From contig NZ_JACGXA010000001.1 of NCBI RefSeq assembly GCF_014138045.1, positions 2,031,001-2,095,000 of the forward strand: DNA of 64,000 nt, read 5' to 3'. This document shows, piece after piece, positions 53,953 to 57,723 of this stretch. Position 1 is the stretch's first letter, and every line of letters begins with the position of its first letter. Origin of the DNA: Nocardioides ginsengisegetis (GTDB taxonomy: Bacteria; Actinomycetota; Actinomycetes; Propionibacteriales; Nocardioidaceae). A program made the position numbers and the translations under genes. The notes under the pieces were generated by a model. It did no database searches and had not been told where the DNA came from. It worked only from the letters and a program-made list of their open reading frames with translations.

Positions 53953-54615
53953 GTGACCAACATGCCCGCCGACCTGCTCGAGCACGCCCGCGCCGCCAAG
54001 GGCTTCATGCCGCACGACGAGGGGCTCGCCCTGTTCCGGCACGCGTCGGCCAGCGTCGGGCTCGGCCCGGTGCTGGAGGTCGGCACCTACTGCGGCAAGT
54101 CCGCGATCTACCTCGGCGCGGCCGCGCGCGAGGCCGGCGGCCCGCAGGCGGTCGTGTTCACCGTCGACCACCACCGCGGCTCGGAGGAGAACCAGGCCGG
54201 CTGGGAGCACCACGACGCGACCCTCGTCGACGTCGAGCTGGGCCTGATGGACACGATGCCGGTCTTCCGCCGCACCATCGCCCTCGCCGGGCTCGAGGAC
54301 CAGGTCGTGGCGGTGGTCGGGAGGAGCACGACCGTCAGCGCCCACTGGCGTACTCCCCTGTCGATGCTCTTCATCGACGGCGGGCACGCCGAGGTGCACG
54401 CGCAGAACGACTACACCGGCTGGGCGCCGTGGCTGATGTCCGACGGGCTGCTCGTCATCCACGACGTGTTCCCGGACCCGGCGAACGGCGGGCGGCCGCC
54501 GTACGACGTCTACCTGCGCGCGCTGGCCAGCGGCGACTTCGAGGAGGTCGACGTCGTCGGCTCGCTCCGGGTGCTGCGCCGGACCGGCGGCGACGCCGGC
54601 GACGCGGTCAGCTGA
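53953..54615 (+). CDS. Class I SAM methyltransferase (methyltransferase_24 type)
   Basis: 220 residues from GTG 53953, six bases after TAGGCT. SAM loop [24 protein letters not shown] at about 35-60, then [14 protein letters not shown] and [36 protein letters not shown], the FIDGxH block of the methyltransferase_24 family. That family often acts on sugars or glycans. It shares the KstR site with fadE34 and overlaps the end of the toroid gene by eight bases, so it may belong to the same pathway as the operon below. Confidence 0.85.
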
Positions 54616-55741
54616 GCAGGTCGGCCGACTCGCAGCCGCACTCGAGCGCGAGCTCGGAGAAGTGCGGCGCGAGCGAGGTGCCGCGCATGATCCCGGACCC
54701 CTCGGTCGCGTGGCCGTGGGTCTCCCCCAGCGCGTCGACGGCCAGGATCACCGCGGCCGCGGTGTAGGTCGTCCACTCCGGCGGCCAGTTGACGTCGGCC
54801 TGCTCGCCGACGTTGGTGGCGTCGCGGTAGACCCAGCCGGTCCAGTACTTGCCCTCCTCGGAGCGCAGGTGCTGCATCTCCGCCAGCAGCGTGAGCGCAC
54901 GGCGCTGGTCACCCAGCGCGTCGAGCGCCATCACGAGCTCGCAGGTCTCGGCACCGGTCACCCACGGGTTGGTGTCGACGCAGCGGATGCCGAGGCCGGG
55001 CACGACGAAGTCGTCCCAGCGCGGCGCGAGCAGCTCGAGGCCGTCCAGGCCGTCGGGGCCACGGACGGCGCCGCCGAGGACGGGGTAGTACCAGTCCATC
55101 GAGAACGTGGACTTGTCCATGAACAGGTCGCGGTGCTCGCGGATCGCGTGGCCGAGCCGGCCGCCGGCCAGCTCCCACTCGGGCTGCGGGTCGTCGAGCA
55201 GATCGGCCAGCGCCACGCCCGCACGCAGCGACTGGTAGATGCTGGAGGAACCGGCCAGCAGCGCGCCCTCCTCGGCCGGCCCCGGTCGCCCGTCGACCCA
55301 CTGCTGGGACCAGGCGATGCCGCCGAACGGCAGCTGCAGCGACACGACCCAGTCGAGGCCGGCGCGCACCGAGGGCCAGTAGCGCTGCAGGAAGGTGATG
55401 TCACGGCGTACGAGCCAGTGGTGCCACAGGCCGACCGCGAAGTACGACGACATGTTGACCTCGCCGCGCTCGTCCTCGACCTCGCCGGCCACGATCTTCA
55501 TCGGCCAGGAACCGTCGGCCCGCTGGAGCGTCGGGGCCCAGGCGTAGGCGCGCTCGGCGGCCTCGACCTGGCCGCCGACGAGCATCGCCATGGCGGCCTC
55601 GACGTGGTTCCAGATGTCGGTGTGCTCGCCGACGGTCCACGGGACGGCGCCGGACGGCTCCTGCATGGCCGCGATCGACGCGGCGGTCTCGGCGACCTGC
55701 TCGGCGCTCAGGATGCCGTCGACCCAGGGGACCTCAGGCAT
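54608..55741 (-). CDS. Alpha/alpha-toroid (prenyltransferase/squalene-type or GH-like) protein
   Basis: 377 residues, overlapping the methyltransferase before it by eight bases. Repeated helical segments with Trp-rich turns ([90 protein letters not shown]) fit an (alpha/alpha)6 barrel such as prenyltransferase/squalene cyclase or glycoside hydrolase families 15/88. The DxDD or QW motifs of true cyclases are not complete, and [13 protein letters not shown] could be part of a glycan-binding cleft. Activity unknown; this is one of the less-described genes of the locus. Confidence 0.72.
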
Positions 55742-56450
55742 CGGGCTTCTTGAAGTAGAGGACCATGCTCTTGCCGATCACCGGGTCGAGCACCTTGCCG
55801 GCCACCTGCAGCGCCTTCGGCTGCTTCATGATCTCCCACACCAGGAGCTTGTGGTACGCCTTCGCGAGCGGGTGGTCGTCGTTCTTCACGCCGACCGCGC
55901 ACTTGATCCACCAGTAGGGCGAGTGCAGGCCGTGGGCGTAGGACTTGCCCTCGAACTCCAGCCCGGCGTTGGCGAGCTTGCCGATCAGCTCCTTGTCGGA
56001 GTAGATCCGGATGTGGCCGCCGGGGGTGTTGTGGTAGTCCTCCGACAGCTTCCAGTTGATGATCTCGGGGAACCACCGCGGCACCGACACCGCGATCGTG
56101 CCGCCTGGGCGCAGCACCCGGACGAGCTCCTCGATCGCCTGGATGTCGGCGGGGATGTGCTCGAGCACCTCGGCCGCGACGATCCGGTCGAACTCCTCGT
56201 CGGCGAAGGGCAGCGCGAGGGCGTCGCCCTCCTTGACGTCGGCCTCGGCACCCTCGGGCACCTCGCCGGCCTCCTTCATCGCGACGAAGAGGTCGCGCAC
56301 GCCGGACAGCTCGTCGGCGTCCTGGTCGAACGCGATCACGTCACCGCCGCGGCGGTACATCTCGAACGCGTGGCGCCCGGCGCCACAGCCCATGTCGAGG
56401 ACACGGTCGCCCGGGCGCAGCCCCAGGCGGTCGAAGTCAACGGTCAGCAC
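55734..56450 (-). CDS. Class I SAM methyltransferase (UbiE/methyltransferase_11 type)
   Basis: 238 residues; its start overlaps the glycosyltransferase end by 14 bases. SAM motif I VLDMGCGAGRHAFEMYRRGG at about 17-36, acidic residue in VIAFDQDAD, motif IV FDRIVAAEVLEHIPADIQAI. The C-terminal half has aromatic and basic stretches (HSPYWWIKCAVGVKNDDHPLAKAYHKLL) that may hold a lipid or isoprenoid. Middle gene of the glycosyltransferase-methyltransferase-toroid operon. Confidence 0.88.
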   Translation of the reverse strand: MLTVDFDRLGLRPGDRVLDMGCGAGRHAFEMYRRGGDVIAFDQDADELSGVRDLFVAMKEAGEVPEGAEADVKEGDALALPFADEEFDRIVAAEVLEHIPADIQAIEELVRVLRPGGTIAVSVPRWFPEIINWKLSEDYHNTPGGHIRIYSDKELIGKLANAGLEFEGKSYAHGLHSPYWWIKCAVGVKNDDHPLAKAYHKLLVWEIMKQPKALQVAGKVLDPVIGKSMVLYFKKPDA

Positions 56451-57723
56451 GGGTCTTCTCCTCGTTGGATTCGGCGTGGTAGTCGGCGATCACCTCGTCG
56501 TACGCCGCCGCGACGGTGGCGGCGACGGCGCGCCAGCTGAACATCTCCTGCACCCGGCGGCGGCCGGCCGCGCCCATGGCGGCCCGGCGCTCGGGGTCGT
56601 CGAGCAGGGCGGCGATGGCGGCCTCGAGCTCGAACACGTCGCCCGGCGTGACCAGGTCGGCGCACTCGCCGTCGGGGCCGACGACCTCGGGGATCGCGCC
56701 GGCGCGCGAGACGACCAGCGGGGTCTCGCAGGCCATCAGCTCGGCGGTCGGGAGCGAGAAGCCCTCGTAGAGGGACGGCACGCAGGCCACCTCGGCCGAG
56801 CCCATCAGGTCGACGAGGTCGGCGTCGCTGATGCCGTGCACGAAGCGGACCGAGTCGGCGATCGAGAGCTTGTCGATGAGCTTCTCGGTGCGGCCGCCGG
56901 GCGTCGGCTTGGTGACGAGCAGCAGCTCGACGTCGCGCTCGGTGCGGAGCTTGGCGAAGGCCTCCAGCAGCGTGGCGATGCCCTTCATCGGGGCGTCGGC
57001 GCTGGCCATGGCGAGGATCCGGCCCGGCACCCGCGGCACGGTCGGCGGGACGAACCCGTCGTCGACGCCGAGCAGGATGACCTGCATCCGCGCGGGGTCG
57101 ACGCCGAAGTCCTTGGCGATGTCGCGCTTGGAGGCCTCCGAGGGCGTCATGATCTTGCGGGCCTTGCGGGCAACCTTGCCCTGCATGCGCAGGAATCCGT
57201 ACCAGCGGCGTACGGACGGCTTCTTGCGCCACGGCGCCGCCTGGAGGTCGATCCGGCGGTCGAAGGTGATCGGGTGGTGCAGCGTCGTGATGAGCGGCAG
57301 CCCCATCTTCTCGATGTCGAGCATGCCGTAGCCGAGGACCTGGTTGTCGTGGACGATGTCGAAGTCGTCGACCCGGTCCCTGAGCAGCCGCGCGACGCGG
57401 GTGCTGAACGTCTTGGGCTCGGGGAAGCCGGCGGTGCACATGGTGAGGAACTCCTCCACGTCCACGAGGTCGCGGAACTCGCGCAGCTTGGGGACCCGGA
57501 AGGGGTCGGGCTCGCGGTAGAGGTCGAGGCTGGGCACCTTGGTGAGCGTCACGCCCGGGTCGAGCTCGGGGTAGGGCTGTCCGGAGAAGACCTCGACGGT
57601 GTGTCCGAGGTTGACCAGCTCACGGCTGAGGTGACGGACGTAGATGCCCTGTCCGCCGCAGTGCGGCTTGCTCCGGTAGGACAGGAGAGCGATACGCAAT
57701 CGTCTCGACCTTTCTGTGGACAC
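56437..57723 (-). CDS. GT4-family glycosyltransferase
   Basis: 428 residues as written from GTG 57723; TTG 57699, after AGAAAGG and before RIALLSYRSKPHCGG, is a credible later start. GT-B fold: N-terminal SYRSKPHCGGQGIYVRHLSRELVNLGHTVEVFSG (acceptor side) and C-terminal GT4 block VPSLYEGFSLPTAELMACETPLVVSRAGAIPEVVG (donor binding, with the E-x7-E pair). Activated hexose donor likely; acceptor unknown. First gene of its operon, with a KstR site at 57741 facing it and kstR. Confidence 0.9.
   Translation of the reverse strand: MSTERSRRLRIALLSYRSKPHCGGQGIYVRHLSRELVNLGHTVEVFSGQPYPELDPGVTLTKVPSLDLYREPDPFRVPKLREFRDLVDVEEFLTMCTAGFPEPKTFSTRVARLLRDRVDDFDIVHDNQVLGYGMLDIEKMGLPLITTLHHPITFDRRIDLQAAPWRKKPSVRRWYGFLRMQGKVARKARKIMTPSEASKRDIAKDFGVDPARMQVILLGVDDGFVPPTVPRVPGRILAMASADAPMKGIATLLEAFAKLRTERDVELLLVTKPTPGGRTEKLIDKLSIADSVRFVHGISDADLVDLMGSAEVACVPSLYEGFSLPTAELMACETPLVVSRAGAIPEVVGPDGECADLVTPGDVFELEAAIAALLDDPERRAAMGAAGRRRVQEMFSWRAVAATVAAAYDEVIADYHAESNEEKTRADR

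Follow-up and report, generated by a model that had tools for sequence, protein, structure and literature searches.

A methylmannose polysaccharide gene cluster of Nocardioides that appears to be wired to KstR, the switch of sterol breakdown

Why should a glycosyltransferase, two methyltransferases and an alpha/alpha-toroid protein be encoded in the midst of genes for sterol breakdown? The question is raised by a 64-kb stretch of DNA from Nocardioides ginsengisegetis (NZ_JACGXA010000001.1, from a genome of 4.46 Mb, our G000), hereafter the window, where four such genes lie between kstR, which codes for a sterol repressor, and a gene for a FadE34-like acyl-CoA dehydrogenase. An earlier note on this DNA saw in them a KstR-controlled set that could decorate a sterol-derived or isoprenoid compound, or build a surface glycan for sterol uptake. 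The answer that we propose retains the control and replaces the product: judging from their sequences, the four genes are almost certainly the known methylmannose polysaccharide (MMP) cluster of mycobacteria (manT, mmpH, meT1 and, by position, pmeT3). The enzymes are ordinary and the wiring is not: what is new is an MMP cluster apparently connected to the switch of sterol breakdown.

The same four-gene set (meT1, mmpH, pmeT3, manT) is described in nontuberculous mycobacteria in the text of Maranha et al. (2023; PMC9883506), according to which MmpH cuts MMP, ManT adds alpha-(1->4)-mannose to the resulting fragments, the 1-OH is capped by MeT1 and pMeT3 is presumed to methylate the 3-OH; the polysaccharide itself stays inside the cell, where its proposed role is to sequester fatty acyl-CoAs. 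The mmpH product of the window matches PDB 7qsj, an entry named Methylmannose polysaccharide hydrolase (MmpH), with E 1e-112. That of meT1 matches PDB 6g7d (E 7.9e-74; also 6g80 and 6h40), the entry being named only methyltransferase domain protein; we take these three structures to be MeT1. The manT product aligns over residues 1-406 with PDB 7qsg (E 2.6e-163), whose molecule name is D-inositol 3-phosphate glycosyltransferase and which is presumably ManT of M. hassiacum. We so identify it because, with an offset of 26, its residues fit the Ser234-Pro238, Lys240 and Glu313 of the published enzyme (PMC9883506); in that alignment (chain numbering minus 26) Lys240 and Glu313 are conserved in the window. 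All three enzymes with solved relatives align over nearly their full length. A close relative of the meT3 product was sought among solved structures and none was found; it is 53-60% identical to its positional counterparts in 12 loci of our family f5, which we equate with Mycobacteriaceae because it contains all 15 genomes above the KstR cut-off and has the type I fatty acid synthase (FAS-I).

Would the polysaccharide be the mycobacterial one? The window MmpH keeps Asp47, Trp49, Asn101, Met215, Tyr219, Glu262 and Glu265, and changes three positions of the pocket (Asp50 to Asn, Phe102 to Met, Thr163 to Ala); of the catalytic residues Asp47, Asp50 and Glu262 it has the first and the last. Among 162 loci compared, 100 have Asn at residue 50 and 88 have Met at residue 102, while Asp stands at residue 50 in 14/14 Streptomyces loci and in all six of the 12 f5 loci that could be aligned there. 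In the mycobacterial enzyme the replacement of Asp50 by Ala drastically reduces activity, as the text of PMC9883506 has it, and the change to Asn may alter activity here, which is a point against our proposal. These differences, together with the link to KstR, would suit an MMP relative that differs in length or methylation pattern and is adapted to bind steroid-CoA. We consider this unlikely: all 162 loci agree at residues 262 and 265, and 153 of them have Asp at residue 47 (Glu in 3, a gap in 6).

The layout is much as the earlier note had drawn it. Coordinates bear out a single operon beside kstR: on the minus strand manT shares 14 bases with meT3 and meT3 shares 8 with mmpH, whose end is overlapped in turn by 8 bases of the plus-strand meT1. 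The glycosyltransferase gene stands as to family (GT4; PF13439/PF00534) and place; its start was probably misplaced, as position 57723 is 24 bases upstream of the ATG at 57699, the likelier start because the alignment with 7qsg begins there. The meT3 product belongs to Methyltransf_11, with weaker similarity to UbiE, that of meT1 to Methyltransf_24, and the toroid has no match in a Pfam search. Against the KstR model NF033703 the kstR product scores 275.3 bits (equivalog cut-off 280), and it groups in a tree with KstR of family f5 (support 96/95). Genes were called with a codon-usage script trained on ten genes of the window, an earlier version based on third-position GC having been discarded.

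KstR is released by steroid CoA thioesters. We consider it probable that the cluster makes MMP or a close variant and that the manT-meT3-mmpH operon is a target of KstR in Nocardioides; as its likely purpose we infer the holding of CoA thioesters. With enzyme roles carried over from the mycobacterial work and identities assigned here by sequence, MmpH would cut mature MMP into primers, ManT would extend these with alpha-(1->4)-mannose from GDP-mannose, MeT3 would methylate each 3-OH and MeT1 would cap the reducing end. If the operon is under KstR, the repressor of the sterol regulon, MMP would rise during oxidation of the sterol side chain, and could then hold acyl- or steroid-CoA thioesters in the cytoplasm.

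How widely these genes travel with sterol breakdown was asked of a class sample of 196 Actinomycetes genomes. The toroid is present in 94 (counting G012, a weak match with stops), and HsaA above cut-off in 29, 25 of which have the toroid; toroids are thus commoner in sterol degraders (25/29 against 69/167, Fisher p 1e-5, uncorrected for relatedness). A steroid catabolic enzyme set would be expected along with hsaA and absent elsewhere, and the earlier note had named as a refutation a trio found mainly in genomes without sterol genes. Taken to the letter, that is the outcome: only 25 of the 94 toroid genomes have HsaA above cut-off, and 69 are without it. Counting the window there are 95 toroid places, of which we viewed 87. 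In 84 of the 86 with a called toroid (L041 being the other), the order manT-meT3-mmpH is kept; meT1 is in the same stretch in 79, and convergent within two genes in 55. No fifth gene accompanies the four across families in the clustered neighbourhoods. The search for FAS-I used PF08354, for which the control, Corynebacterium glutamicum, was positive (PF17951 was uninformative, no control being positive), and found it in 19/196 genomes and in 15/94 toroid genomes, leaving 79 of the 94 without a match, as are all 13 genomes of the window's genus.

This spread bears directly on the products first imagined. That a sterol-derived or isoprenoid compound is glycosylated and methylated, or a surface glycan made for sterol uptake, drew its appeal from the place inside a sterol locus and from the families of the enzymes, and the three changes in the toroid pocket of Nocardioides could be added in its favour. 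The near full-length matches to solved relatives, the many genomes that hold the same genes without HsaA above cut-off and the want of any further companion gene in the clustered neighbourhoods make it highly improbable. Novel decoration gives way to the MMP cluster already published, and a surface role fits poorly with a polysaccharide described as intracellular (PMC9883506).

We turn to the wiring. Within and around the genus, 89 loci were compared, namely 76 of 80 named loci (the best 80 of 134 confirmed), 12 loci of the same genus from the class sample, and the window, whose toroid has its nearest named relatives in Nocardioides. Four named loci (L182, L186, L191, L196), and L041, in which mmpH was not called, were left uncounted. 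The cassette lies between kstR and fadE34 in 49 loci (48 distinct, L093 and L170 being one genome), has kstR alone in 8 (the contigs of L138 and L157 end too early to call), and neither gene adjacent in 30 (L099 is the genome of L201); two loci keep fadE34 only, with manT absent from the contig or not called. Around cassettes without sterol genes the reductase gene found here at 61277-62242, and often the esterase gene at 48733-49983, still form the flanks. Three f5 loci, N. luteus BAFB, N. nematodiphilus and N. albus have kstR and fadE34 directly adjacent and divergent, with no cassette between. One conceivable history is that the cassette entered a kstR/fadE34 pair that was there before it. 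This is the less likely course, as the reductase and esterase genes still flank the cassette in many loci without fadE34; in much of the genus, sterol genes were more probably lost from around a cassette that already stood in its place.

Sites were sought from up to 300 bases before to 60 after each start with the consensus TnnAACnnGTTnnA (eight fixed positions), the motif given for KstR in the text of Kendall et al. (2007; PMC1995591). The two operators claimed for the window, at the kstR/manT and fadE34/meT1 promoters, are real, matching 7/8 and 8/8 fixed positions respectively, and the one at the kstR promoter is conserved among relatives. In dinucleotide-shuffled upstream windows, no mismatch occurs in 1/1545 and at most one in 37/1545. 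By contrast, a site with at most one mismatch precedes manT in 49/49 loci with kstR and fadE34, in 8/8 with kstR only and in 7/30 with neither. Conservation averages 94% over its 14 motif columns and only 51-61% over the 30 bases that flank it to the left and to the right.

The site before meT1 behaves otherwise. With fadE34 as the divergent neighbour it has at most one mismatch (49/49 loci); where kstR alone is left, in six clear loci, and in unlinked loci, the mismatches number 2-3. The earlier claim of a fourth gene at the fadE34 operator thus stands for the site; its extension to control of meT1 is weakened, because in Nocardioides the site persists only beside fadE34. We dropped this operator as evidence for such control, since it follows fadE34 and not meT1. 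In five Streptosporangiaceae, too, a perfect site precedes meT1, and the gene divergent from it is a different one, though again of a kind seen near kstR here. The best reading is that this operator belongs to the divergent gene, control of meT1 being possible.

In linked loci the site before manT could serve autoregulation of kstR alone, so that the best evidence for control of manT comes from genomes in which the two genes lie apart. Five of the seven such loci with a site were followed (L163, L200, L202, L206, L209; L160, on a short contig, and L208 were left out), and all five genomes have a KstR ortholog elsewhere, 63-66% identical. Three of them have HsaA above cut-off, and kstR and fadE34 adjacent without the cassette; G202 and G208 have only weaker relatives of HsaA (338 and 372 bits). 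In N. luteus and N. albus the sites lie 33-37 bases before the called start of manT. Among genomes whose manT has no site, a search for a KstR ortholog gave 0/9, and five more gave only general TetR matches to the KstR model (best E 1e-9 to 3e-12); one of the five is among the nine, so that 13 distinct genomes lack both, a further nine loci having been left out.

The species with kstR alone are telling in another way. None of the five searched (L175 was left out) has HsaA above cut-off, and all keep the manT site. Genome-wide, perfect sites number 6, 16, 17, 15 and 10 in these five, 5-15 in seven KstR-less species and 28-51 in five sterol degraders, with 1-17 for the reversed pattern over all 22 genomes: by site count, the kstR-only species show no larger KstR regulon above background. 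The link between KstR and MMP is not specific to sterols, for the cluster outlives the sterol genes and several species without HsaA keep KstR and the manT site.

Similar wiring recurs further away. Two families were named after the close relatives of one protein each, f18 as Streptomyces and f16 as Streptosporangiaceae. In Streptomyces, where 17/18 sampled genomes have no HsaA above cut-off, a perfect manT site is present in 12/12 loci with an adjacent KstR-like TetR gene, divergent from manT, whose product is 41-46% identical to the window KstR; of two loci without the adjacent regulator, one (G143) keeps the site. In Streptosporangiaceae a perfect manT site occurs in 7/18 loci, and in six more the operon begins with an additional gene that is itself preceded by a site with one mismatch; one operon of this kind has no site. 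Two of the seven have a KstR-like TetR gene three genes away, its product distant from KstR and of unsure place in the tree. The other five have none within three genes, and in L032, L034, L035, L038 and L042 manT and its divergent gene have a KstR-type site in common; that divergent gene resembles, presumably, a GDP-mannose 4,6-dehydratase, to judge from the N-terminus of its cluster.

Much can be set against this reading, and we gather it here. In 42 of the 49 fully linked loci the outer T is missing from the site before manT, the sole deviation there. Only five unlinked genomes, from three lineages, separate control of manT from autoregulation of kstR, and in G208 the count of perfect sites (14) does not exceed that of the reversed pattern (17). 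A ManT tree of 71 rows, sampling 18 of the 49 loci with kstR and fadE34, agrees with the co-occurrence but offers few independent events: presence of KstR changes at least nine times and the site eight times, and in five independent, well-supported pairs the site follows KstR in four to five and never does the opposite (sign test p 0.06-0.125). G143 keeps its site with no KstR-like regulator at E 1e-25 in the genome. Several families are without the manT site: f5 has none (0/12 loci) although it has KstR and often the cassette, f15 (0/7) and f13 (0/1) have none, most with KstR-like TetRs and no HsaA above cut-off, and f31 (0/1) has none with HsaA present, while f17 has one in 13, with one mismatch. 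With these five families mostly site-less, the KstR/manT wiring is recurrent and not universal.

It might then be supposed that an ordinary MMP cluster came by chance to lie in the gap between kstR and fadE34, the sites serving kstR autoregulation and fadE34 only, and MMP not being regulated by sterols. The many toroid genomes without HsaA above cut-off, the site-less manT of f5 and the vanishing of the meT1 site along with fadE34 all speak for it. Chance placement leaves aside the unlinked genomes, five of which keep a manT site of their own with KstR elsewhere, while the 13 site-less ones lack it; it also has to face the short distance of the N. luteus and N. albus sites from manT, and the five Streptosporangiaceae that keep the site with no KstR-like TetR within three genes (where the divergent gene may use it). 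We consider it quite improbable, and the comparative evidence makes control of the manT-meT3-mmpH trio by KstR likely, as the earlier note had proposed.

MMP has mostly been explained through FAS-I. A bolder and more doubtful proposal, which we put forward tentatively, is that repressors of the KstR family have a second, non-catabolic task in setting the level of MMP, a task that may be older than sterol breakdown or may survive its loss. The repressor would be released by steroid- or acyl-CoA, synthesis of MMP would follow, and the polysaccharide would in turn buffer those CoA thioesters. If this were so, MMP would be a general acyl-CoA chaperone of actinobacteria and not an accessory of FAS-I, since most toroid genomes have no FAS-I match. 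MMP has been studied mostly in mycobacteria. A cluster from genomes with no FAS-I match, and apparently under the sterol repressor, offers a concrete inducing condition, and a host that is non-pathogenic, for tests of what MMP binds. As for KstR, it gains a likely target outside catabolism, and with it a possible reason why some species without HsaA keep it. The features concerned are collected in Table 1.

Table 1. Genes and KstR-type operators of the locus, with positions in the window
Feature	Position	Strand	Assignment and basis
manT	56437..57699	-	GT4 alpha-(1->4)-mannosyltransferase of MMP synthesis (predicted); PDB 7qsg 546.9 bits, Pfam GT4
meT3	55734..56450	-	class I SAM methyltransferase, positional equivalent of pMeT3 (putative 3-O-methyltransferase); Methyltransf_11
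mmpH	54608..55741	-	alpha/alpha-toroid, predicted MMP endomannosidase; PDB 7qsj 380 bits
meT1	53953..54615	+	predicted MMP 1-O-methyltransferase, convergent with mmpH; PDB 6g7d 251 bits, Methyltransf_24
kstR	57847..58446	+	TetR-family sterol repressor; start may be ATG 57823; NF033703 275.3 bits
fadE34-like acyl-CoA dehydrogenase	51809..53899	-	Pfam Acyl-CoA_dh domains; neighbour beyond meT1
esterase (BD-FAE / Abhydrolase_3)	48733..49983	+	near meT1 also in many loci without fadE34
NAD(P)/FAD reductase	61277..62242	-	Pyr_redox_2; adjoins manT in many loci without sterol genes
KstR-type operator, fadE34/meT1 divergent promoter	53920..53933		TAGAACGTGTTCCA, 8/8 fixed positions of TnnAACnnGTTnnA
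KstR-type operator, kstR/manT divergent promoter	57741..57754		TGAAACGTGTTCCT, 7/8 fixed positions of TnnAACnnGTTnnA

The window holds other sites and genes worth recording. A perfect KstR-type site at 48709-48722 separates a gene for a wax ester synthase/DGAT (47269-48696, minus strand) from the plus-strand esterase gene, which suggests that lipid storage and ester cleavage may belong to the sterol regulon. Another, at 62281-62294, lies upstream of the reductase gene, behind which, on the same strand, are genes for a PNPOx-like protein, a ferredoxin and two short-chain dehydrogenases. Further intergenic sites are at 5990-6003 (one mismatch), 12495-12508 and 44882-44895 (none in either); beside the first, positions 6030-8732 code for a predicted protein of 900 residues with a lactonase-type propeller and a phosphoesterase domain. 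Within the sterol locus, 49991-51187 encodes a ScyD/ScyE family protein (NF033206, 160.7 bits), and a gene like those for pyridoxal-dependent decarboxylases (45828-47213), beside sterol genes, clusters with no gene of the neighbourhoods fetched.

It remains to compare the locus with what is known. Mycobacteria also make a methylglucose lipopolysaccharide (MGLP), a product of other genes than those of MMP; it is glucose-based and not what the window encodes. MGLP is, in the text of PMC9883506, the other cytoplasmic polymethylated polysaccharide, likewise proposed to bind acyl-CoA. KstR was published as a regulator of lipid genes; it is a TetR repressor whose gene diverges from fadE34 in mycobacteria, and a possible orthologue in Streptomyces is SCO2319 (Kendall et al., 2007; PMC1995591). 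The main text of that paper makes no mention of the MMP tags of M. smegmatis (MSMEG_648); compared with the mycobacterial regulon, the regulator's promoter here also faces manT. The origin of KstR has been placed in the ancestor of mycobacteria and Rhodococcus (McGuire et al., 2012; PMC3388012, as worded there), and the Nocardioides data suggest a wider spread. RNA sequencing of N. simplex found kstR (KR76_12270) and fadE34 (KR76_12295) induced by phytosterols; the four tags between them go without mention in the main texts of both reports (PMC7807495, PMC7593942), and would be the MMP genes, since Pimelobacter simplex ATCC 6946 (L155) has four genes between kstR and fadE34. A search of the open-access literature with one pair of terms, subscription papers being mostly outside it, returned no paper with both KstR and methylmannose. 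The mycobacterial MMP cluster has the same four genes, its solved enzymes match those of the window at 251-547 bits with catalytic residues mostly kept, and the f5 loci fetched have the gene order of the Nocardioides cluster. Unlike it, the Nocardioides cluster lies between kstR and fadE34, carries KstR-type operators, and belongs to a genome with no match to FAS-I.

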